Positions 1-19,848 of a stretch of DNA of 20,025 nt are shown here, one piece after another. Under the pieces are notes generated by a model. The model made no database searches. It was not told the DNA's origin and saw only the letters and a program-made list of their open reading frames with translations. The stretch's first letter is position 1; every line of letters begins with the position of its first letter. The DNA is from a virus. Location of the stretch: positions 1 through 20,025 of IMG/VR virus record IMGVR_UViG_3300004369_000201; one strand, given 5' to 3'. The translations under genes and the position numbers were made by a program.

Positions 1-716
1 CCTACTTGCGTAGCACATTTATTATTCACCTTCTCATTTAAGGCTATACCCCTTTTGGCATTGTTGCGTACTGAAGTGGGGTAGTCCTTATAGCTTTCAA
101 GCTCAGTACGCTTACCCTTTTTTGTGCGGAGGTCTTTCTTAATGATAGCCTTAATAGCATTCAACTGCTCTTCCGCTTCTTTCTCTGGGTCTTGTTTAGA
201 TGCCTCTACCTTGTCTACAAAGTAGCCCTCAATAGAGAAGCCCTTAACCTTACCCGTCTTTACATAACTCTCCCACAACTCATCGTTAAGTATCTTCATA
301 CTCACCATCCAAGTACCTACGGGTAAGTCCATACCATACATACGGCTCTTGTCTTGCTCACCTTCAATAATCCAGCTCTCTACAACACTTGTGCCTTGAA
401 CATCCATCTGGTGTTCTAATGTAGCTTTGTTTTGATTGCCGTTGATGAAGAACAATTCACTTGCCTTTCTTACCGTGTCTTGCGAGAAGTAGATGTAATA
501 CTCATCCTCTCCGTTTCTACGATAGATAGGTTTGTTAGGAATTAAAGCTGCACCCATTAAGATGCGCTTCTCCTTGTCTACTGTTTTTAACTCTACTCGC
601 TGCTCTTCTTTTAAGGCAACAAAGTCGGATTCAATCGCAGGAGACTCTACCACACTAATGGCTTGAATACCCGCTTGTAAGCTCTCTGAATCTAATAATA
701 GTTCTACTATTCTCAT
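1..716 (-). CDS. XkdF-type phage serine protease (prohead protease), partial
   Basis: Reading down from the ATG at 716 gives 238 open codons that run off the left edge, so the C-terminus is missing. The N-terminus (MRIVELLLDS, then ISVVESPAIESDFVALK at residues 20-36) is typical of the XkdF putative serine protease family. Residue H102 (ATLEHQ) and S161 in KGFSIEGYF are the likely catalytic pair; S-x-E is the pattern known from S78-like prohead proteases. The family matures the capsid by cutting scaffold and capsid protein. From about residue 200 a second, Lys-rich segment (YPTSVRNNAKRGIALNEK, 212-229; then NNKCATQVG) resembles a domain often fused behind XkdF proteases. The start overlaps the stop of the tape-measure gene (TAATG), which implies coupling. 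Family assignment is firm; the catalytic residues are inferred from motif position. Confidence 0.88.
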   Translation of the reverse strand, partial: MRIVELLLDSESLQAGIQAISVVESPAIESDFVALKEEQRVELKTVDKEKRILMGAALIPNKPIYRRNGEDEYYIYFSQDTVRKASELFFINGNQNKATLEHQMDVQGTSVVESWIIEGEQDKSRMYGMDLPVGTWMVSMKILNDELWESYVKTGKVKGFSIEGYFVDKVEASKQDPEKEAEEQLNAIKAIIKKDLRTKKGKRTELESYKDYPTSVRNNAKRGIALNEKVNNKCATQV

Positions 717-2599
717 TATGGGAATGATACTTGGTTAATTCTGTTTCTATCTAACTGCTGTTGTGAGGTAACATCACTACCTACTACATATGCTCTTACT
801 GGGTTGCGTTGCAAGGATTCTAATATAGCGTTCTGACCCGTAGAGCCTACCATATTAAACTGAGGTGATGTTGCTGCCGCAGTAAGATTACCGATGGCAG
901 TATCTACACTACCCGCAGATTCAAACTCGGTTGATTTGATTTTAGCAATTTGGGCTGCACCCGTTGCCGCAGCAATACCTGCCTTTACAAAGTTCTGCCC
1001 CGTGAGGGCATCTTGTGGTACTGCGAGTTGTGCCATTACCGCTTGTGAAGTGTTGATAATGGCTTGTGCAATCTGCAATTTCTTGTTTCTATCAAAAGCC
1101 TTTTTTGCCGCAACTTCGTCTTCCTCATCAAAGTTCTCGTTTCGCAGAGACAATAGGCTTAAAGCATCGGTAGCCATTTGCAACCCACCCTCTATGGATG
1201 CTCTATTGACTTCGTGTCTCTTACGAGCTTCCTCACCCTCTTGGACTGTACGCTCGGCATTAAGCACGTTAATCTGACTAACCATATCTTGGTAGGCTTG
1301 AGTGCCTTCCTTGTATAGCGACTTTTGAAACTTCAGTGCCTCAAGTCTACTCTGGTACAACTTCTTGTTTAACTCCTGCTCAAGAGTCAATTGCTTTTGT
1401 GCATTAAGTTCAGCCTCAATAGCTGCCTCTGCTTCAATCTCTGCTACCTCTTGTTCAGTTTCTGCTTTAGCAATTAGTAAGTCAATAGCCTCTCTGTCCA
1501 GAGCATTTTGATTCATCTTATACTCCGAACGGAAGCCGTCTACTTGCGCTTCAATACCTGCAAGTTCGTTAGTAGCTTGTATGTATTCCTTCTGGAACTC
1601 TATGTTGTCTTTTTCTTTATCTAAAATAGCAGCTTTAGCATCTACGACTCTTTGAGCGTTGGCTAACATTACCTGCTCTTGCTCATCAAGCACCTTACCT
1701 AAATCTTCGTTAGCCTTCTTGCGTTGCTCAATAGTTAGGGTCTCGTCATCACGAATCTGGCGTAGTTTCTCCGCTTGTCTATCGTACTTCTCGATTAAGC
1801 CTTGTGCTAACACCTCTGCAATCTCTGCTTCTTTGTTAAGCTTCGTCATCGCACGGGCGTTGTCTAATACCGCCCCTGCGTCAATCTTCTTAAGTCCATT
1901 TACAACCTCAGTACCAATCGTGCCAACTTCTTGAATAGCCTCTCCAATGTCGTTAGCAATGCTCTTACCTGCTGCTAAAGCCCCCTCTCCGATTTCTACG
2001 ACCTTCAGTCTGGTCTCCTCCAATTGTCCTTTTAGCTCCTCAATGTGTTGGGCATCGTTGCCCCCGAAATACGACTGCTCCCACGCCAACTGCGCACCCA
2101 ACACCGCAGCCCTAATGCCTTGAAAGGCAAGTTGTACGGGTACAATAGCAACGGTGAGAATGTTCTTGAGAACCCTGCCTAACGCATCAAAGTTCTCCGA
2201 AGACTGGGCTACATTGTTGTACACATCTTCCAGTACGCCAGAAACTTCAGAAAATATACCAGCGAGGAAGTTGAATGATGTAGAAAAGGCATCTACCACT
2301 TTCTGGTTGTTGTCAAACAAGTCCTTAAGTATTCTAAACCCCTCCAATAGCAGTCCGATACCTGCGGCTTTGATAGCTATACCTAACCCCTTAAACCCAG
2401 CACCTAAGCTCTTGATACCCTTCTTGCTGGTCTCAGCACTCTTACCAATGTCTTTAGTAGTATCGGCAATGTCGTTAATGCTCTCCGCAGTCTTGTCGGC
2501 TTGTTTCTGGGAAGCCTTTAACGCCTCAATGAGTTCGTCTAACTTTTTCTCAAGACCCGAAAGGTCAGCACCTATAATTATGTTCTTCTCTATCGCCAT
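716..2599 (-). CDS. Tail length tape measure protein
   Basis: This is a 627-residue protein with the make-up of a tape measure. It has a polar, Ala/Lys/Glu-rich helical N-terminus, a Gly/Ala hydrophobic stretch at residues 67-92 (LGAGFKGLGIAIKAAGIG), and a second hydrophobic stretch near 148-172. A long coiled-coil part rich in E, Q, A and K follows over roughly 240-470, and the tail is Ala- and Gln-rich. Tape measures set siphophage tail length and pass into the cell with DNA. At the usual rule of about 0.15 nm per residue this would give a tail near 90-95 nm, which is short. The start at 2599 overlaps the preceding small gene by 10 bases. It sits directly before the XkdF protease gene. There is no peptidase or lytic domain that I can see. 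The call rests on composition and context, not on a catalytic motif. Confidence 0.75.
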   Translation of the reverse strand: MAIEKNIIIGADLSGLEKKLDELIEALKASQKQADKTAESINDIADTTKDIGKSAETSKKGIKSLGAGFKGLGIAIKAAGIGLLLEGFRILKDLFDNNQKVVDAFSTSFNFLAGIFSEVSGVLEDVYNNVAQSSENFDALGRVLKNILTVAIVPVQLAFQGIRAAVLGAQLAWEQSYFGGNDAQHIEELKGQLEETRLKVVEIGEGALAAGKSIANDIGEAIQEVGTIGTEVVNGLKKIDAGAVLDNARAMTKLNKEAEIAEVLAQGLIEKYDRQAEKLRQIRDDETLTIEQRKKANEDLGKVLDEQEQVMLANAQRVVDAKAAILDKEKDNIEFQKEYIQATNELAGIEAQVDGFRSEYKMNQNALDREAIDLLIAKAETEQEVAEIEAEAAIEAELNAQKQLTLEQELNKKLYQSRLEALKFQKSLYKEGTQAYQDMVSQINVLNAERTVQEGEEARKRHEVNRASIEGGLQMATDALSLLSLRNENFDEEDEVAAKKAFDRNKKLQIAQAIINTSQAVMAQLAVPQDALTGQNFVKAGIAAATGAAQIAKIKSTEFESAGSVDTAIGNLTAAATSPQFNMVGSTGQNAILESLQRNPVRAYVVGSDVTSQQQLDRNRINQVSFP

Positions 2600-2721: not shown

Positions 2722-4708
2722 CGTTAAGCAATTCTAATTGAGCTTCACCCGTTGTTAGGTTGAGCTTCATTTGGTTTATAATGTAGTTTCTTTCAGCTAT
2801 CGTCAACTTGTCGTTAATCTTCAATGCCAACATTAAGCCCAAAGGTAGCCGTGCTTTGTACTGGAACAGCCTCCTGCTAACCGAATACAAGTCTGTGATA
2901 TAGTCCTTCCAGTAAGTATTATATAAGCCCGTAGCAAAGCCTTGTAACAAGTAAGGGTCAACCTCTGTGCTGAAGTTTAAAGTCTTAGTTACATCAGCAG
3001 CAGTAGTGTCATTCACATTACCCACTAAGTGGAAGTCCGTCTTAGAGTTTTCAGTATTTGTCATATCTATGTAAGCGTAGGGGCTTGTGCCTCGTATCTG
3101 CCCCGCCAAATAAAATATAAACGGATTGCCTACATAAGGCTCAATCTCTCTGGTAATACTCTTACCTACATTGATTGTAGTTAGTCCATTGTCGAGGTCT
3201 GTAAGTCGCTCAAAGAGCATATTATCAAAACCTACCTCTACCTCAAACTCTTCACCATCAAAGGCAAAGTCAGCTCTTAAATCACCATAGCCTATATCGT
3301 TTTGCAGTCTATACTGCTCACCTAATATAGCCTCTGTTTCATTGTAGCTAAAAGATATTCTACGATAGAGCGATGGTTTACTAATAGTAACCTCTTCCGT
3401 ATCAATGTATTGTGTAACATCTCTTGTACTTCCCTCTGCATACCAGTCATCTAAAGGTTCAACATCATACTTATTATTACTCGTTGGCACTATTATTAAG
3501 TTGAAAGCCCTTACAAGGCTTCCTATAAAGTCGCTTACCTTTTGCTCTGGCAGTTGGTCGCTAATAACTACACTTGACGTGTATATCTGCGATGCTGAAG
3601 TAGAAGCCGTAGCGATGTTTACGGGTGTGGTTATAGGCACAATAACAAACGATGCTGTAACTGCCGTTAGCGTTATCACACTTGCATCCCAAGCTGCAAT
3701 GGGAGAGAACTTAATTTGAAACTTATCTCCATCGGTAGGGTTGGTTATAAACCGTACAGTTGAATTTCCAGTGTCTTCTTTCTTTGCGTAGAGTTCACCA
3801 TTAACATATAGAGAGATAGCATAGTCATCAGTAGAAGTTACAGCTACATCTATGTAGTCCATATCTGTCATACTGCTCTCGTTAAAAGTGAAGATGTCAG
3901 TAGAGGTATTGAAACCAGAACCCGTAGCACTTGTGAAGTCTATAACCTCGTCTGTACTTCCATTCGGTTGGTCTTTGAACATATACCCAGCTCTCCTATG
4001 ACACCACATAAACAACTTACCAAAGTCAGCAGAGGCAAAGAAGTCGCTTTCAAATTCTATTGAATACTTCGTCTCTATCGCATCTATAATCTTCTGTAAC
4101 TTAACCGCAGGTTTCAAGTCGTAGTAGAACACTCCGTGTTCGGGGTGTCCATTGTGATACCAGATATTATCTGGATTGTCATCACTACTCGTAGAGTCGT
4201 AGAACCAATTCCTTACTGGAGATATAAGGGGATAGATAATACTACTATCTGTACCACTTACAAAACCATCTAACCCCGCTTCAATGTTCGTGTCATTGTA
4301 CGAGTGGTCTAAAGCTGATAAGTCAAGGTCGTTAAGTTGGTCTTCACCAAACTTGTCCTTCAAAGAAGTGACATTACTATAAAACCCTACATTGTAAGCA
4401 TAAGGCTCACCGCCTTTTATCTGTACACCCTCTAACTCAAGAACACCATCTCTAAAGAGATTGTTATTCACCTCTATAAAAGCCGATACCCTTACCTTAG
4501 CATCAAAACCACCAAAGACATCTACATTGTAGTAGTGCTTAAAGATAGCGTTGTTTATTGTTGACGCTGGAATAGTAAAGCTATTTGTAAAGTCACCAAA
4601 GACCTTAGAGATGTCCTTAATGTTCTGAACACTTAGGTTTATCTCTATGCTCTCGTCTTGAAATAGGTCAGCTCTTTGACCATCAATATATAGGTCTACT
4701 TTATACAT
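2714..4708 (-). CDS. Large tail/baseplate structural protein (664 aa)
   Basis: This protein begins MYKVDLYIDGQRADLFQDES and contains the stretch DISKVFGDFTNSFTIPAS (residues about 32-49) followed by IFKHYYNVDV. I associate this N-terminal pattern with conserved virion proteins of Bacteroidetes phages, usually left as 'structural protein'. The rest is rich in beta-prone, Thr/Ser/Asp/Tyr-containing stretches with no enzyme motif visible. It overlaps the 414-residue gene upstream by 8 bases, and the two probably work as a pair in the distal tail. Length and beta-rich character would suit a tail hub, distal tail or baseplate protein, but the exact role is unknown. A structure prediction would be decisive: a Dit/gp27-like hub fold would support this reading. 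Confidence 0.65.
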   Translation of the reverse strand: MYKVDLYIDGQRADLFQDESIEINLSVQNIKDISKVFGDFTNSFTIPASTINNAIFKHYYNVDVFGGFDAKVRVSAFIEVNNNLFRDGVLELEGVQIKGGEPYAYNVGFYSNVTSLKDKFGEDQLNDLDLSALDHSYNDTNIEAGLDGFVSGTDSSIIYPLISPVRNWFYDSTSSDDNPDNIWYHNGHPEHGVFYYDLKPAVKLQKIIDAIETKYSIEFESDFFASADFGKLFMWCHRRAGYMFKDQPNGSTDEVIDFTSATGSGFNTSTDIFTFNESSMTDMDYIDVAVTSTDDYAISLYVNGELYAKKEDTGNSTVRFITNPTDGDKFQIKFSPIAAWDASVITLTAVTASFVIVPITTPVNIATASTSASQIYTSSVVISDQLPEQKVSDFIGSLVRAFNLIIVPTSNNKYDVEPLDDWYAEGSTRDVTQYIDTEEVTISKPSLYRRISFSYNETEAILGEQYRLQNDIGYGDLRADFAFDGEEFEVEVGFDNMLFERLTDLDNGLTTINVGKSITREIEPYVGNPFIFYLAGQIRGTSPYAYIDMTNTENSKTDFHLVGNVNDTTAADVTKTLNFSTEVDPYLLQGFATGLYNTYWKDYITDLYSVSRRLFQYKARLPLGLMLALKINDKLTIAERNYIINQMKLNLTTGEAQLELLNDV

Positions 4709-5945
4709 ACCTTAAATCAAATGCTTCTTCTACTTCTATCGTGTAGTTAATCATTTTGTCGTTAACCGACTTCTGTAATGTTAGGGAGTTGCTTACAACA
4801 TTAACGGGTACACCGTCAAGTAAGATACGCTCACTCAATAACATCTCCTCCATAATAGTACCGTAGTCCTCACCTACAAAGCCAGTATTTAGAGTTATGT
4901 TCTTTCTACCATTGGTGTTTATCCTTTGGTACTTATTGCTTGTCGTGTCGTAGGTGTACCCAGAAACACTACTGCTACCCAAAGACCTTCTGTACTGCTC
5001 ACTCGTAGTGCTAATAGCGTTGTTACTTCTCTTAAAGAAAGTAACACTCTCCCATACACCATTCTTATTTACAAACTGCATAACGCTTGGCGAATACTTG
5101 CTCTCACACGTTGGGTAGAACCTTCTTGTGTCTAAGGTATTCCCAAAGCAGTCCTTTAGGTTAATGTCGTAGTAGCTCGTATAGTTCAATGGCTCTCCAA
5201 CAGTATCTAACCAAGCTGTAAGGTTATCAATACCACAAGGGATTAACATCACCCTTTCCTCAGCTTGTAGACCTTGCAGTTGTGCTTCGGTAATACTAAT
5301 GCTTACATTGTATTCCAAATCGGTCAATACCTCAACGGTGTCAAGACCTATGTTAGCACATTGCGCTCCTCCCTCAACAATACCTCCATCAGCAAGGACT
5401 CTATCTTTATACGCCCAGTAGATGTCATAGCCCTCACCCCACTTACCAAGATATACGGGTACAACCTCATTGCCAGAGTCCTTAATGTACTTCTCAGCGT
5501 TAACACTTGCAAAGCCTTTAGTCACCTCTTTGTTAGCTCCCTCAGTAAAGTTGTGGTAGCCATTAGTTGCCTCAAAGATATCCGTACTCCCCGTGTCGTT
5601 TGAGATTGTAGGTGGGTCAGCTTTGTTGTAGTAGCTGACGTTGTAGTCTGCTTGAACCCACACCACACTATCGTTAGGCACATAGCTTATATCGGTAGCG
5701 TCAAAGCCCGTATGTGCATTAGAGAGGTACTCTTGTACCATAGGTGCAACATCAAAGGACACGTCAGTTCCTGCAAACACATCTCTAAACAAAGTGTATT
5801 CTGGTGATGCAGGTCTTGAAGACCTTGACCCACTCCATATATATACCTCTAAGGTGATGTCCGTTATAGAACTCGCAAGAGCCGAATACGGTGCTGTTAT
5901 ATATATAGGGCTTCTTGCCCCTACTAAACTCGTTGGTGTTATCAT
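4701..5945 (-). CDS. Tail structural protein, partner of the 664-aa protein (414 aa)
   Basis: The protein starts MITPTSLVGARSPIYITAPY and continues with alternating hydrophobic/polar beta-type segments (DITLEVYIWSG, DVSFDVAPMVQEYL). The opening 'RSPIYITAP' and the 'L.R.V..G...FDVAPMVQEYL' pattern recall a conserved virion protein type of Bacteroidetes phages, but its job is not established to my knowledge. There is no signal peptide and no transmembrane segment. The start at 5945 overlaps the stop of the gp10-like gene (ATGA), and the end overlaps the 664-residue gene by 8 bases. The tight chain suggests the two large proteins are made in a fixed ratio. It may be a distal tail or tail-tip component. 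Confidence 0.6.
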   Translation of the reverse strand: MITPTSLVGARSPIYITAPYSALASSITDITLEVYIWSGSRSSRPASPEYTLFRDVFAGTDVSFDVAPMVQEYLSNAHTGFDATDISYVPNDSVVWVQADYNVSYYNKADPPTISNDTGSTDIFEATNGYHNFTEGANKEVTKGFASVNAEKYIKDSGNEVVPVYLGKWGEGYDIYWAYKDRVLADGGIVEGGAQCANIGLDTVEVLTDLEYNVSISITEAQLQGLQAEERVMLIPCGIDNLTAWLDTVGEPLNYTSYYDINLKDCFGNTLDTRRFYPTCESKYSPSVMQFVNKNGVWESVTFFKRSNNAISTTSEQYRRSLGSSSVSGYTYDTTSNKYQRINTNGRKNITLNTGFVGEDYGTIMEEMLLSERILLDGVPVNVVSNSLTLQKSVNDKMINYTIEVEEAFDLRYV

Positions 5946-6508
5946 CGTTTGGTAAATTTCAAAAATTCATCTACATCCATAGAGACTGCTTTTAGCACCT
6001 CCTCTGGTAGCTTCTCAAATTCCATTCTAAATGGTGCTTGGAAGAACTCACTCTTGGGAATCCCTCGTTGCTTAATACTTCTGCTTATTAAGAAGGCTGC
6101 CCTATCAAGGTTCGCCTCTGTCTGCTTCACAAAGCTATTGGTCTTTAGGTCTCTTGCCTTAACTTTCTTCTGAGCCATCCAAGTTCTTATAGAACCCTTT
6201 GGAGGCTGCTTACTGTCAAAACCAAACCTACTGCCGTTAGGTACTTTATACTTCGTACCATCAACCCCCTCATCAATGTACTTACCATAGTCCTCCATCG
6301 TGAAAGACATAAGTAAGTGTACTCCCGTTGTTAAGTCGTAATCTAAGCTATCCTTGAGCTTACCAGAGCTTACTTGTCTTCGTCTCTTTTTCTTACCGTC
6401 ATTATAGGTAATAGTACGAGTAGCACCAAGATTAAGTCTCGCTGCTTTAATCACTCGCTCGGCAAACTGCCGTAGCACCATCTCAGTATTTTTAGTGACT
6501 ACGGACAA
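5942..6508 (-). CDS. HK97 gp10-like head-tail/tail completion protein
   Basis: The protein has 188 residues. An N-terminal helix (FAERVIKAARLNLGA) is followed by a basic loop with KKKRRRQ, then SSGKLKDSLDYDL and a beta segment (LLMSFTMEDYGKYIDEGVDGTK) and a C-terminal helical part (AAFLISRSIKQRGIPKSEFF). The order 'sample is asymmetric: SGxLxxSLxY ... YGxYxxxG ... RGIPxSxFFxxPF' matches the gp10-like minor tail/neck family of HK97 type. These proteins act at the head-tail joint or in tail completion. It overlaps genes on both sides (10 bases with the 155-residue gene, 4 bases with the 414-residue gene). The neighbour upstream looks like a tail terminator, which fits the usual neck gene pair. 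Confidence 0.7.
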   Translation of the reverse strand: MSVVTKNTEMVLRQFAERVIKAARLNLGATRTITYNDGKKKRRRQVSSGKLKDSLDYDLTTGVHLLMSFTMEDYGKYIDEGVDGTKYKVPNGSRFGFDSKQPPKGSIRTWMAQKKVKARDLKTNSFVKQTEANLDRAAFLISRSIKQRGIPKSEFFQAPFRMEFEKLPEEVLKAVSMDVDEFLKFTKR

Positions 6509-6966
6509 ACAGTAATAGTATTAGGGATGTCAATACTCAAGGTGAGATTCCAACCTACTAACAAGTTCTCAAATCTATCCTCAAAAGGTTCGGCACTTGG
6601 TGTGCCATTCAACTGGTATCTATCTAACATTAGGTCTGCCCTCTTTAGATGGCTTATCAAGTCGTTAGCAACAAGGAGCTGGGTGTTTAAGATGTCGTGT
6701 CTATTATCTACACCATAGAATATCTCTGCCTCATCTCTTGGGTCTTCCTTACTTACATCAGCAACATCCATAAACAAGATGCTCATTGAGTAGGTAATAC
6801 CAATGTCGTTAAAGGTGACGTTGTTAACCATTATATGAGATAGGGGGAATATAGTCTGCTTGTTGAGGTCTACATCAAAGATGTCTCCCTCTGTTACGGT
6901 GTTCACCTGCTTATTAGCAATAAGGTGTTCTCGTATCTTTGTAGTAATGTCGTAGAATGAACTCAT
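6499..6966 (-). CDS. Putative tail terminator / neck protein (155 aa)
   Basis: This 155-residue protein starts MSSFYDITTKIREHLIANKQ and ends with a beta strand (GWNLTLSIDIPNTITVCP). Length, an N-terminal helix of the kind 'lr.hL..n..VntVt.GDi..vDl.K.tiFP', and its place beside a gp10-like gene fit the tail terminator/tail completion group (lambda gpU-like in role), which caps the tail tube and joins it to the head. This is a context-based call; no diagnostic motif is visible. There is a 43-base gap upstream to the end of the frameshift extension of the chaperone gene. The gap contains the palindrome GGTTAACC and an A/T-rich stretch ahead of the ATG at 6966. Confidence 0.5.
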   Translation of the reverse strand: MSSFYDITTKIREHLIANKQVNTVTEGDIFDVDLNKQTIFPLSHIMVNNVTFNDIGITYSMSILFMDVADVSKEDPRDEAEIFYGVDNRHDILNTQLLVANDLISHLKRADLMLDRYQLNGTPSAEPFEDRFENLLVGWNLTLSIDIPNTITVCP

Positions 6967-7009: not shown

Positions 7010-7261
7010 TTAAGATAGCTTCATCATTCTACGCTCTACATCGCTCTTCTCCTTATCGTACACCAACTTAGTTAGGCATTGTCTCAAAGGTAGGTTGGTT
7101 ATAGAATCATATCTTGCTACATCACCACCAGCTAAATGGTCTACGCTTCCGTACCATCCCCACTTCCTTGAAAAGTTTGCGGAGGCTGAAAGGTCAGCTT
7201 GTCCTTCTCCTCCACTAAAGAGGTCGGGGTACTCTTCAATAACTTGTTGCTTAAACGATAA
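7010..7261 (-). CDS. Frameshift extension of the tail assembly chaperone (83 codons, -1 frame)
   Basis: In the -1 frame relative to the 202-residue gene, 83 codons are open from the T9 run down to TAA at 7010-7012. They begin LSFKQQVIEEYPDLFSG and include FSRKWGWYGSVDHLAGGD, then VARYDSITNLPLRQCLTKLVYDKEK and a basic tail. The 'KWGWYGS...LAGGD...V..L....CL..L.Y.K.K.E' pattern is what I expect from the C-terminal part of phage tail assembly chaperones made by programmed frameshifting. There is no ATG in this frame until the last five codons, so independent initiation is unlikely. It runs 131 bases past the zero-frame stop and fills what would otherwise be an unexplained gap. The product would be 163 + 83 = 246 residues. 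No experimental proof; the reading is from sequence alone. Confidence 0.8.
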   Translation of the reverse strand, partial: LSFKQQVIEEYPDLFSGGEGQADLSASANFSRKWGWYGSVDHLAGGDVARYDSITNLPLRQCLTKLVYDKEKSDVERRMMKLS

Positions 7262-7749
7262 AAAAAAAGCGTAGCACCTAAAGCTACATCTAATGGAAAG
7301 TCTGAATAACCATCTGTACCATTATAAGGTTCTACCTCGTAGAGGTCACCTCTTTCTTTTACGATAGGTCTATACAACACCCCAATAGTCTTATGTAGGC
7401 TTTGCATATCGGCAAGGTAAGCATCCAAGTCTATGTACTCCCCAAAGCTCATCTCCTCAAGATTAGGAATAAACCCATACTCTCTACCTCTAAAGGTTAG
7501 TCTTCTGGTAAGTGGGTGCTTGGCACTTATCATAGTGAAGATGTCGCTGCCTATATCCATTATATCGTCTGCCTTCATAGCATAGGCAACCTTGAGAGGG
7601 ATGTTAGCGAATATCTCTAATGCCTTTAGCATTGTAAAGGTGTCATCTCCTTCAACCTTGAGGAACTTCTGGTACTGCTCAATAGTTAACTCCCTTGCGC
7701 TCTCTGGTAGCTTAATCGTTACCTCCTTACCTAACTGCGTATGTGCCAT
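7141..7749 (-). CDS. Tail assembly chaperone, zero-frame product (202 aa)
   Basis: The zero-frame protein starts MAHTQLGKEVTIKLPESARE and has a helical body with RGREYGFIPNLEEMSFGEYIDLDAYL-type segments (split here: RGREYGFIPNLEE, MSFGEYIDLDAYL) and LHKTIGVLYRPI. Near the end, TLFFYR is encoded by CTT TTT TTT TAT, a T9 run (7260-7268) that offers a perfect X-XXX-XXX slippery heptamer. Tail assembly chaperones bind the tape measure and are normally made as a short form and a frameshifted long form. It overlaps the large terminase gene by 23 bases upstream. Zero-frame residues after the run (about 39) are Ser/Thr/Pro/Gln-rich and end GSGDGTEA, which looks like a linker-like tail. The position right after terminase, far from the tape measure, is unusual. 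Confidence 0.75.
   Translation of the reverse strand: MAHTQLGKEVTIKLPESARELTIEQYQKFLKVEGDDTFTMLKALEIFANIPLKVAYAMKADDIMDIGSDIFTMISAKHPLTRRLTFRGREYGFIPNLEEMSFGEYIDLDAYLADMQSLHKTIGVLYRPIVKERGDLYEVEPYNGTDGYSDFPLDVALGATLFFYRLSNKLLKSTPTSLVEEKDKLTFQPPQTFQGSGDGTEA
7260..7268 (-). other. T9 slippery run, probable -1 ribosomal frameshift site
   Basis: Nine T residues on the minus strand are read CTT TTT TTT TAT in frame zero. T-TTT-TTT within it is an X-XXX-XXX heptamer on which both tRNAs can re-pair after a -1 slip. Slipping leads straight into the 83-codon chaperone extension. Stimulatory structure downstream was not assessed. Transcriptional slippage on the same run is an alternative. Confidence 0.75.
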
Positions 7750-8944
7750 ATGTTTTGTTCTTCTTTCTATTGTAGTTGCATAATGCTAAACTCATTACCG
7801 TGTCATCGTGTAAGCCCGTAGGGTGTCCGTATCTAATACTTCGTGTCTTAGGGCTGTACTCGTATGTAAACACGTTTAACTCGTTGTATAAGGGACTAAA
7901 TAATTCTTTTGAGGGTATGTGTACACCCACCTCGTTAAAGTCCAGTATAAGCCCCTCTATGATTTCGTTCTTAGACTTGTTCGTAGTGATAAAGGGGTGG
8001 GTATTGGCATACTGGCTTTTTATCTGCTCAAAGATAGGGTCACCTACACCATTCACTTCAATCAATAACGAAGCGTTGTACTGACGCACACGCTGCACTA
8101 CCTCAGCTATCATCACACTCCATTGGTTCTTATTATCTCGGTAGATGTCTACAACCCTACCTTTAGAGTCCATCAAGGTAAGTACAGTGTAATCCTCTTG
8201 CTTACCAATATCCAGCCCTGCGAATACCTTACCACTTGGCTTAGGGTATGCAGGAAAGGTACACTCGTCTATATTCGCAAAGACCTCACCACCTCCGTCT
8301 ATAAACTCTGCTAAGTATTCTTGCTTGAATATCTGCTCTGGTACTGTTCTCTTCGCATCGTCTATCTCATCTCTTGAAATGAAGGGAGTGTCGTAAGAGC
8401 TGCCCTTATAGCTTTTGTAGTTAGGGTAGTCATCACTCTGCCCATATTGAAATAACTCATAGAACCAGTTCTTACCTTTGGGTGTAGAGATGAAGAGAAC
8501 CTTCTTACCTCTTACAAGTAGTGTCGGCTTGATAGCCTCACTCCAAGCATCGTCTTTAATAAAGGCTGCCTCATCTATGATAGCATAGTCTAAAGTCATC
8601 CCCCTTATGTTGTCATATCTTTCAGCACTCCTAAAGTAGATAACACTACCGTTCTTTAGTTCCAGCTCTGAGGAAGAGTAGTTATTAGACTTCACTACAC
8701 CAGATGCGCCTATGGCAGACATCAGTTCCTTCTGCACCTTATTCGCTTGGGAGTAAACTGGAGATACCCATAGTATCTTACAAGGGCTGTTATTAAAGCA
8801 CCAATACAATGCAAGGTTCATACCCATCATAGACTTACCGAACTGTCTACCGATAGATGCTATATGGTACTTCTCCTTACCCTCTACAATAGAAGATAGG
8901 AGTTCTGCTTGTACCTTATGTGGGCTGAAACCCGTTACTGTCAT
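7727..8944 (-). CDS. terL: Terminase large subunit (packaging ATPase-nuclease)
   Basis: This 405-residue TerL carries all expected motifs. The Walker A variant GRQFGKS is at 32-38, Walker B LDYAIIDEAAF has D124-E125, and a coupling-type STPKGK is near 153-158. The RNase H-like nuclease acids are D245 (AGLDIGKQEDYTV), E296 (LLIEVNGVGD) and D380-D381 (GLHDDTVMSL). The enzyme pumps DNA into the prohead and cuts concatemers. Length is normal for a compact TerL. The start overlaps the small terminase stop (ATGA at 8941-8944), and the end overlaps the tail chaperone gene by 23 bases. The absence of a portal gene right after it is noteworthy, since portal usually follows. Confidence 0.93.
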   Translation of the reverse strand: MTVTGFSPHKVQAELLSSIVEGKEKYHIASIGRQFGKSMMGMNLALYWCFNNSPCKILWVSPVYSQANKVQKELMSAIGASGVVKSNNYSSSELELKNGSVIYFRSAERYDNIRGMTLDYAIIDEAAFIKDDAWSEAIKPTLLVRGKKVLFISTPKGKNWFYELFQYGQSDDYPNYKSYKGSSYDTPFISRDEIDDAKRTVPEQIFKQEYLAEFIDGGGEVFANIDECTFPAYPKPSGKVFAGLDIGKQEDYTVLTLMDSKGRVVDIYRDNKNQWSVMIAEVVQRVRQYNASLLIEVNGVGDPIFEQIKSQYANTHPFITTNKSKNEIIEGLILDFNEVGVHIPSKELFSPLYNELNVFTYEYSPKTRSIRYGHPTGLHDDTVMSLALCNYNRKKNKTYGTYAVR

Positions 8945-9246
8945 TCGTCTCTTTCATTGATGGGCGTACCGAACTCAAACCTAATGTTCTTGAATAGGTC
9001 TGCACCATCAGCACCAGTAACCTCTTGACGAGCTAACTTAGGAATCATATACTCGCTCAACTTGAGCATTAAGTCCATCGCTCTCTCTGGGTTCTCTGCT
9101 GCTACTTGTGTAAGCCACTCCGTCATATTAGTGAGGTTGTCCTCAACTAACTTCTGGTAGGCTTCTCTTATCTCTGCTGTAGACTTATTAGGCTTCCCCT
9201 TAGGTCTACCCTTTGGGTTGGTAACCTCTCCTTTCTTGAATGCCAT
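8941..9246 (-). CDS. terS: Terminase small subunit
   Basis: The protein has 101 residues. The N-terminus MAFKKGEVTNPKGRPKGKPN has the 'NPKGRPKGxPN' basic, AT-hook-like segment common in phage small terminases and DUF5681-type proteins. A helical region (STAEIREAYQKLVEDNLTNM, then WLTQVAAENPERAMDLMLKL) follows, and the C-terminus has the 'IRFEFG' strand. Small terminases recognise the packaging site and load the large subunit. Its direct overlap with terL is the strongest support. The start at 9246 lies within an 8-base inverted repeat (9245-9269). Confidence 0.8.
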   Translation of the reverse strand: MAFKKGEVTNPKGRPKGKPNKSTAEIREAYQKLVEDNLTNMTEWLTQVAAENPERAMDLMLKLSEYMIPKLARQEVTGADGADLFKNIRFEFGTPINERDE

Positions 9247-9269
9247 TATAAATGATTATAGTTTATAAT
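9245..9269 (-). promoter_or_regulatory. Inverted repeat around the terS start codon
   Basis: ATTATAAA at 9245-9252 and TTTATAAT at 9262-9269 are perfect inverted copies with a 9-base spacer. The left arm includes the terS start codon. It could be an operator for the late genes or an RNA hairpin that hides the start. The arms are pure A/T, so chance occurrence is possible. Confidence 0.3.
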
Positions 9270-9275
9270 GTTAAC

Positions 9276-9518
9276 CTACTCATCTCTTTTGCGTTTAGCC
9301 TCTTCTCTAAAGAGTTTCTTGATTGCTTGGGTGTTAGCACGTCTTGCTTGTCTGTTCTCTCGTGTAGGGGCTTCTGGTAGTTCTATAAAGTTCTTTAAGA
9401 AGGCTTGTTCATCTCTTGAGAGCTGTCCTCTTAGGTGTACTTGTACTAACAGTTCAAAGAGGTTGTTTAGGTTGTTTCTATTAATGAGTACATTAGCACT
9501 CTTTGCTTGTTCTTCCAT
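9276..9518 (-). CDS. Hypothetical protein ahead of terminase (80 aa)
   Basis: The protein starts MEEQAKSANVLINRNNLNNL and continues as a helical, Leu/Glu/Arg-rich chain that ends in a strongly basic segment (NTQAIKKLFREEAKRKRDE). I do not recognise a family. There is no transmembrane segment, no Cys pair and no enzyme motif. The basic C-terminus could bind nucleic acid, and its position 30 bases before the small terminase would suit a packaging accessory, but both points are inference. Spacing to the gene upstream is 26 bases. Confidence 0.6.
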   Translation of the reverse strand: MEEQAKSANVLINRNNLNNLFELLVQVHLRGQLSRDEQAFLKNFIELPEAPTRENRQARRANTQAIKKLFREEAKRKRDE

Positions 9519-9544
9519 AAGTTATTTAACGGTGGTGTTAGCCA

Positions 9545-9730
9545 TTACATTTTAATTAGTCTTAGTCTTCTTTGGTACTTACGGATGAGTAGAGCGTTAT
9601 TGGTAATCGTGTCTTGCAACTCCGTAGTCCAACCGAACCTACTTGCTTGGATAGAGAGATTGACATTGTCAATCATTAGCATAGATAAGAACTTCTCTAC
9701 CTCTCTGATGTGTTTGTACTTCCTAATCAT
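9545..9730 (-). CDS. Hypothetical protein (61 aa)
   Basis: This is a short, basic, probably all-helical protein beginning MIRKYKHIREVEKFLSMLMI and ending IRKYQRRLRLIKM. The ATG at 9730 overlaps the stop of a tiny upstream frame (ATGATTAG). There is no recognisable family or motif. It is supported by coding-like composition and by its place in a continuous minus-strand gene chain. Confidence 0.5.
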   Translation of the reverse strand: MIRKYKHIREVEKFLSMLMIDNVNLSIQASRFGWTTELQDTITNNALLIRKYQRRLRLIKM

Positions 9731-17346: not shown

Positions 17347-17380
17347 CAAAGTTAATAAAAATGTTTGTTACTTAAACAAA
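17347..17380 (-). promoter_or_regulatory. Bacteroidetes-type promoter candidate P3 (SSB-like gene)
   Basis: On the minus strand TTTG (17377-17380) is followed after 22 bases by TAACTTTG (17347-17354), a perfect TAnnTTTG -7 element. The ATG at 17322 lies 25 bases further. The element overlaps the end of the methyltransferase gene. It explains separate high expression of the SSB-like gene. Confidence 0.6.
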
Positions 17381-18555
17381 GGGTGTAGTTTTTTTGCAAT
17401 TGCTTCTACTACATCCACAGTAACTGCGTTGCCACATTGCTTATAGCGTTGAGTGTTGCTCATCTTCTTTACTTCGCCATCATAAACTCCATACTCGGTA
17501 TGGTTATCGGGGAATCCTTGTAGGCGTTCACACTCTATTGGTGTGAGTCTGCGGATGCGGTAGCCATCGAATAGCCTCAAGCTATTGTGATGTGGTTGCG
17601 TGAGCGTTGGTGATTCATCTCTTGCTTCTCGATTGTACAAGTCAAGTGCCTTTGGCTCTCCTTCATTTAGCGTGTTTCGCTCAATGGTTTCATTTAGTGA
17701 CTTGCTACTATAATTAGGCTGAACAACTAGATTCATAGTCGTATCAGTGGTCAAGCAATTTGATTCGCTATTTTTGTTTAATTCCAAACGCTGCTTGTAT
17801 TCAATGCCCTTACTATTGTCATTTGGATTGTTTGGGTTGCGACCACGAATAGCACCAATCATCGGCTCAACTACGGCTTTTTCGTAGCCATCGGATGCTG
17901 CGCCTTTTACTTTGATAAGTTGCATTCCTGCGTGTCCCTCTTGACCTCTTGCAGTAAGGCACTTTGTAACGGCTTCTCCTGCGCATTCCAATTTGCTATT
18001 TGATTGACTTGTTTCTCCGATAGGAAAAACTCCTCGCCAATTTCGTTTGGTTGTTGTAGAATATCCGACAAGGTATATCCGCTCTCTATTTTGGGGTAGA
18101 AACCACGATGTATTAAGCAGTTGCCATTCAAGTCGATAGCCCCCAATGTTGGCAAACTCTTGGAGGATTGCCGCAAAATCTTCGCCAGAGTTGGAGCTGA
18201 AAGTTCCTTTAACATTTTCCCAGATAAAAACTCTTGGTCTGCATTCCCCAATAAGTCGAATCGCTTCAAGGATAAGGCTGCTTCGCTCTCCTCCCATCCC
18301 CTTACGCTTTCCAGCAAGACTAAAATCTTGGCAAGGACTTCCAAAGGTGATAAGGTTAATTTTTGGGAGGTCTGCTCCCCGAACATCTGTAACTGAGCCG
18401 ACATAAGTGCTTTCTTTAAATTGTTGTTTATATACTGCTACTGCGTGTTTGTCTACTTCCGAGAAGTAGCTCTTGACTTTGTACCCAGCTCTTTCAAAGC
18501 CCAAGTGGAATCCTCCTATACCAGAGAACAAGTCTAATTGGTTAATTTCTTTCAT
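17368..18555 (-). CDS. DNA (cytosine-5) methyltransferase
   Basis: The protein has 395 residues with the standard motif order. Motif I is DLFSGIGGFHLGFE (8-21). Motif IV is GSPCQDFS (72-79) with the catalytic Cys75. Motif VI is ENV (113-115), and motif VIII is QNRERIYLVG (155-164). Motif IX is RRLTPIECERLQGFP (335-349), and motif X is QCGNAVTVDVVEAI (373-386). The enzyme puts a methyl on cytosine C5 and probably shields phage DNA from host restriction. The target recognition region (about 165-330) is long and contains three short Thr-Leu marks (CLTARG 199-204, CLTTD 267-271, PTLTQ 316-320). No cognate endonuclease gene is seen nearby. It overlaps RusA by 14 bases. Confidence 0.93.
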   Translation of the reverse strand: MKEINQLDLFSGIGGFHLGFERAGYKVKSYFSEVDKHAVAVYKQQFKESTYVGSVTDVRGADLPKINLITFGSPCQDFSLAGKRKGMGGERSSLILEAIRLIGECRPRVFIWENVKGTFSSNSGEDFAAILQEFANIGGYRLEWQLLNTSWFLPQNRERIYLVGYSTTTKRNWRGVFPIGETSQSNSKLECAGEAVTKCLTARGQEGHAGMQLIKVKGAASDGYEKAVVEPMIGAIRGRNPNNPNDNSKGIEYKQRLELNKNSESNCLTTDTTMNLVVQPNYSSKSLNETIERNTLNEGEPKALDLYNREARDESPTLTQPHHNSLRLFDGYRIRRLTPIECERLQGFPDNHTEYGVYDGEVKKMSNTQRYKQCGNAVTVDVVEAIAKKLHPLFK

Positions 18556-19497: not shown

Positions 19498-19848
19498 TTA
19501 GAACCCTCTAAAACCTTCGTATCCCATTAAGTGAAGCGATGTCTCAACATAGTGAGCTTCTATTGCAGTATCGTAGATACCTACAATTTCATAACCCTCA
19601 GTAATTCTCTTGTTTACTTGACCGTGTTGATATATACGAGAGTCTATATTGTTGGTCATACCAACATAATGATGTTCTGGTAAGTAATAGACATAATACA
19701 GTATTTGTCCATTAACCAACTTTTTATTGTTGTAGTAAGATTTGTGACAAGATTTACAATGACCTTGTCTACCATCTTTGGTATTAGGATTGTTATGGAA
19801 GTCTATAATAGATTTCTCATCATTGCATTTATTACACAACTTTAGCAT
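19498..19848 (-). CDS. Zinc-finger plus GIY-YIG homing-type endonuclease
   Basis: The protein has 116 residues. C5-x2-C8 (CNKC) and C31-x2-C34 (CKSC) with DGRQGH between form the small zinc finger often found in phage homing endonucleases. The second half holds the GIY-YIG fold: LYYVYYL (50-56) for the GIY part, HYVGMTNN (60-67) for the YIG part, R71 and H75 (IDSRIYQH), and the acidic residue in AIEAHYVETSL (E97/E102). Such genes cut DNA at specific sites and spread into related phages. The fold appears complete but compact. Its leader is highly structured. Confidence 0.75.
   Translation of the reverse strand: MLKLCNKCNDEKSIIDFHNNPNTKDGRQGHCKSCHKSYYNNKKLVNGQILYYVYYLPEHHYVGMTNNIDSRIYQHGQVNKRITEGYEIVGIYDTAIEAHYVETSLHLMGYEGFRGF

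Follow-up and report, generated by a model that had tools for sequence, protein, structure and literature searches.

A conserved −1 frameshift on a run of nine thymines in a putative morphogenesis gene of tailed phages

Results and discussion

Organisation of the locus

The 20,025-nucleotide stretch of viral DNA analysed here (hereafter the window; IMG/VR record IMGVR_UViG_3300004369_000201, positions 1 to 20,025) contains, directly 3' of the terminase large subunit gene terL, a reading frame that carries a run of nine thymines (T9) towards its end, past which the −1 frame is open beyond the zero-frame stop. The locus raises the questions of whether the two frames are joined into one protein, which machine slips on the run, and what the products do. 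Its features are listed in Table 1. On the minus strand the context of the run is GCT ACG CTT TTT TTT TAT CGT TTA, in which T_TTT_TTT (7267–7261) forms an in-phase −1 slip heptamer of the X_XXY_YYZ pattern, and no other A/T run in the window reaches a length of nine. A −1 shift at this site joins the N and C domains in a fusion of 246 aa, whose stop ends at 7010, 131 nt beyond that of the zero frame. A preliminary description made from the letters alone had claimed a slippery heptamer within CTT TTT TTT TAT, 83 open −1 codons with a 131-base overhang, a 246-residue fusion and a position right after terL; all of these, coordinates included, were correct on recount.

Table 1. Features of the frameshift locus and its neighbours in the window.
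Feature	Position	Strand	Evidence and remarks
Terminase large subunit, directly upstream of the frameshift gene	7727..8944	-	Pfam PF03237, 1.4e-20; PHROG_2, 7e-52
Gene 3' of terL, zero-frame product of 202 aa	7141..7749	-	N domain (residues 1-163) plus 39-residue zero-frame tail
T9 slip site	7260..7268	-	T9/T10 at 247/247 distinct junctions
−1 frame extension, 83 codons plus stop (LSFKQQ...MMKLS)	7010..7261	-	C domain with WGWY...LAGGD motif
155-aa gene, directly downstream	6499..6966	-	PHROG_30964, function unknown; tail-terminator-like by inspection only
188-aa gene, second downstream neighbour	5942..6508	-	PHROG_29822, function unknown; HK97 gp10-like by inspection only
Likely tape measure protein, same gene block	716..2599	-	PHROG_1506 (tail length tape measure), 2.3e-4

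The frameshift gene has a terminase on one side and, on the other, a syntenic block to which the tape-measure-like gene belongs. Among the 215 relatives with enough flanking sequence, the 155-aa gene lies downstream in 212 and the 188-aa gene in 201. About 4.4 kb and four genes separate the frameshift gene from the tape-measure-like gene, so that the window lacks the arrangement in which a chaperone gene immediately precedes that for the tape measure protein. The window's own terL was matched by tblastn in 28 of the 203 relatives with at least 1.3 kb of upstream sequence, and at some inspected loci (e.g., L078 and L248) the upstream ORF resembles another terminase. The block looks as if it had been combined with different packaging genes. 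The gene at 3–716, which by inspection resembles a head maturation protease, comes after the tape-measure-like gene, and the tail genes of this phage therefore seem to precede its head genes. At 17368–18555 and 19498–19848, inspection of the translations revealed ORFs resembling a DNA methyltransferase and an HNH/GIY-YIG-type endonuclease, respectively.

Conservation of the junction

Relatives were collected from IMG/VR with the fusion as query, which returned 80 loci, and by further scans with an alignment, a distant relative or the C domain alone as query and a scan of genome contigs, bringing the total to more than 300 loci. Since some contigs enter this total more than once, with differing flanks, counts are given here for distinct junction sequences, of which there are 247 with the window included. 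The second half lies in the −1 frame with respect to the first at all 247; the run is T9 at 240 and T10 at seven, and is never shorter than nine. Such uniformity goes far past what chance would produce. The relation is likewise −1 at all 244 loci with both halves among the first 248 recovered, the other four being an Elizabethkingia record that has no match to the N part and three loci truncated where their contig stops. To lessen the bias of a fusion query, HMM profiles were applied to the 67 loci that the C-domain scan had added, and in each of the 66 that contained both halves the relation was again −1 (T9 in 65, T10 in one). An in-phase slip heptamer was present at every one of the 188 junctions in one of the junction sets. 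The junctions include those of the isolated Nonlabens phages P12024L and P12024S (27% identical, with the −1 relation and T9) and that of a contig from the isolate Galbibacter pacificus CAA-3. The phage group is large and apparently of Bacteroidota, its hosts being taken from a few named relatives. A search among these sequences for relatives with a broken −1 frame or an interrupted run, either of which the preliminary description had named as grounds for refutation, found none in the 247 distinct junctions.

The T10 junctions (L117, L124, L154, L155, L156, L245 and L280) keep the −1 relation; in some of them a Phe codon replaces the upstream Leu or Val, and in others there is an extra codon after the run.

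Selection on both halves

Among 64 separately paired sequences, the N part in the zero frame had a pN/pS of 0.15. That of the C part in the −1 frame was 0.26, with 0.18 in the portion past the stop of the zero frame. When the same C-part DNA was read in the zero frame or in the third frame, the ratio was 1.07 or 1.61. A comparison of synonymous sites on the two sides of the run, which had been suggested as a check, showed that such change drops sharply at the run and stays low for ~21 codons beyond: synonymous differences in the N part were mostly ~0.23–0.37 per comparable codon, 0.05–0.12 in the 21 codons that follow the slip site, and 0 of 186 at the slip-site codons Leu/Val-Phe-Phe. The zero frame is itself partly constrained just after the slip, with a pN/pS of 0.26 in the first eight codons and 0.65 in the next eight, and its stop lies anywhere from 58 to 265 nt past the slip among relatives. 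As judged from these comparisons, purifying selection acts on the −1 frame but not on the zero frame of that DNA, with the first 8–16 codons constrained in both. This pattern fits two products, a short one in which the first ~16 of the extra residues matter and a long one with the C domain.

The preliminary description also held that the −1 frame lacks a usable start, and this is borne out across the group: neither ATG nor GTG precedes the conserved W-G-W-Y motif of the C part in 237 of the 242 scorable junctions (five of the 247 could not be scored). Internal initiation of the C part is for this reason unlikely.

Proposed products and the nature of the slip

The best explanation of the locus as a whole, to which we assign a probability of roughly 0.6, is a programmed −1 frameshift gene of tailed phages whose morphogenesis protein would act in the manner of lambda gpG/gpGT. 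Decoding that stays in the zero frame would yield a product of 202 aa here, the N domain followed by a short tail under constraint, and a fraction of events that slip on the T9 into the −1 frame would give the N+C fusion (246 aa here). The slipping machine would be either the ribosome or RNA polymerase, the same fusion across ...LFF|LSF... being expected from both. The products may then work as gpG and gpGT do, with the N domain acting on the tape measure protein and the C domain recruiting tail subunits. The conserved −1 frameshift is well supported by the sequence comparisons; that both products are made, and in what ratio, is our inference. The literature searched yielded no published description of this frameshift.

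The alternative that survives best concerns the machine. In transcriptional slippage, RNA polymerase would slip on the T9, some mRNAs would gain a U, and ordinary translation of these would produce the fusion; we regard this as having somewhat less than an even chance. A homopolymer of at least nine A or T residues at the transition, a feature of such slippage, is present at 247 of 247 junctions, and the lower limit of nine on the run length is itself in its favour. Bacterial RNA polymerase slips efficiently in vivo on runs of nine A's or T's (PMC5009743), runs of Tn with n>8 are sites of transcriptional realignment (PMC3711429), and U_UUU_UUU is a weaker ribosomal site in E. coli than A_AAA_AAG (PMC5009743). 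The T9 transcriptional slippage of the Shigella mxiE type has the same run length, which is efficient for RNA polymerase (PMC3711429, PMC5009743); the cited cases of this type, however, are not phage tail genes, and polymerase slippage in the window gene is a candidate only.

The eighth thymine of the run bears on the same point. A change of T8 to C would be silent in both proteins wherever the −1 codon is TTA or TTG, as it is at 234 of the 240 T9 junctions, yet T8 is always T. The resulting T_TTT_TTC heptamer would still suit the slip pattern, and the constancy of T8 counts in favour of the polymerase. Against this, UUU at the Z position may simply outperform UUC as a ribosomal site, and T1 and T9 of the run are partly fixed by coding constraints.

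Conserved stimulators of ribosomal slippage are also scarce at these junctions. No conserved downstream RNA structure was found in 73 diverse sequences (mean z −0.14, s.e.m. 0.11, in a test that covers structures other than pseudoknots), the mean z across seven windows ranging from −0.34 to +0.12, and an SD-like stimulator occurs upstream of the run at only 11 of 240 junctions. The scarcity favours the polymerase; stimulatory RNA structures and SD-like elements are nonetheless common rather than obligatory in programmed −1 ribosomal frameshifting. In 234 of 240 junctions the +1 frame meets its stop at one and the same early codon past the run, so that +1 products would end almost immediately. 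The gpG/gpGT frameshifts described in the cited sources are, on the other hand, ribosomal. Taken together, the run length, the invariant T8, the missing structure and the literature make polymerase slippage a serious rival to the ribosome but not the default.

Named and distant relatives

In Nonlabens phages P12024L and P12024S, ORFs _40/_41 and _38/_39 comprise both halves in the −1 relation with a T9 as in the window; unlike the arrangement proposed here, the records annotate the halves as two hypothetical proteins without a frameshift. These loci lie at 8995–9689 (L082) and 2995–3689 (L083), and the N half belongs to PHROG_32199.

In phages further removed, N and C seem to share a single ORF, with no separate N product evident. 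Remote profile similarity to the N and/or C part was found in single proteins of Duneviridae (Flavobacterium phages FPSV-D15, 2A and laban6-1 and Cellulophaga phage Ingeline; PHROG_25418) and of Microcystis phage Mea-Yong924-1 (QXN68085), although the matches are low, at 7–14 bits for the Duneviridae with the A2 profile and 11.6 bits for the Microcystis protein with A3. In these phages a single ORF of 274–301 aa contains, by inspection, an analogous ...FF junction, with T runs of six or fewer. Among predicted viral structures, 10 proteins of 226–267 aa were matched by both the N and the C models, which suggests that they may be single-ORF versions. In Elizabethkingia phage TCUEAP1, the C profile finds the protein encoded after terL with 24 bits, in one frame.

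Flavobacterium phage 6H was considered as a second kind of frameshift, its 191-aa N ORF ending soon after an in-phase T_TTT_TTC. This record was set aside because FPSV-D15 and 2A, to which the phage is closely related, carry one ORF of 293 aa and a different sequence at that place. The junction of the 6H gene (L249, 10352–10927) differs from theirs perhaps through a sequencing error, perhaps through a real local change.

Identity of the protein

The preliminary description had called the product a tail assembly chaperone fusion reached by a −1 shift on the T9 run, with no distinction between ribosomal and transcriptional slippage. Its frameshift and fusion are strongly supported by the comparative evidence; the chaperone role is plausible but less secure. 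The two-product architecture has its parallel in gpG/gpGT (PMC5009743): in lambda, too, one gene in the tail block gives an N protein and a fusion extended by a −1 frameshift. The window gene differs from the lambda gene in lacking a sequence-family match, in following terL at ~4.4 kb before the tape-measure-like gene, in its T9 site, in a predicted alpha/beta N domain and in distant relatives that are apparently one ORF.

The N and C parts were folded separately rather than as one fusion chain, giving a mixed alpha/beta model for the N part (178 aa, pLDDT 86) and a helical one for the C part (84 aa, pLDDT 82). Neither model had a fold match in the PDB, and sequence searches there gave no chaperone either. 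Among predicted viral structures the matches of the N model were the Nonlabens protein, numerous uncharacterised proteins of phages and, weakly, one BFVD model named as a tail assembly chaperone (Foldseek E 0.03). Searches of Pfam and PHROGs assigned the window protein to no chaperone family; PHROG_32199, of unknown function, matches the N part in all 73 members scanned, and PHROG_166, annotated "tail protein", matches it weakly in two of the 73.

A different neck or tail morphogenesis factor would account for these results if the frameshift, though real, only tuned the dose of the C domain. Such a factor is less likely than not, though a substantial possibility. The missing chaperone family and fold matches speak for it, as do the relatives, in Duneviridae and one Microcystis phage, that apparently have a single ORF, and a position next to terL and the conserved 155-aa gene instead of the tape measure gene. 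It is opposed by the production of N alone together with N+C, which is the hallmark of gpG/gpGT, and by the weak matches named tail and chaperone, which with the position in the tail block make the chaperone role plausible. By analogy, a G/GT-like tail assembly chaperone is thus the most likely role, but the gene was not filed in the gpG/gpGT family because the tape measure gene does not adjoin it, no chaperone family matches it and the fold comparison gave no more than the one weak match to a model named as a chaperone.

The remaining alternative, a sequencing or assembly error, a pseudogene or two separately started genes, is exceedingly improbable: homopolymer runs are error-prone and the Nonlabens deposits do list two ORFs, but the 247 distinct junctions come from separate assemblies as well as isolate genomes and all combine the −1 relation with T9 or T10, both halves are under purifying selection, and a start codon ahead of the conserved motif is missing at nearly all scorable junctions.

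Implications

Standard gene calling misses this frameshift gene in a large phage lineage, and the two isolate records checked overlook it. A further reading, which we put forward tentatively, is that in tailed phages of a widespread lineage, apparently one of Bacteroidota, slippage of RNA polymerase on an invariant T9 may set the ratio of a short to a long tail-assembly factor that distant phages would encode as a single ORF. At this locus an all-T slip site is strongly supported and has natural variants in the hundreds, and the T9 run allows slippage by the ribosome and by RNA polymerase to be told apart in a direct test. The distant phages, which apparently have both domains in one ORF, may serve as a natural experiment on why the short form is made.
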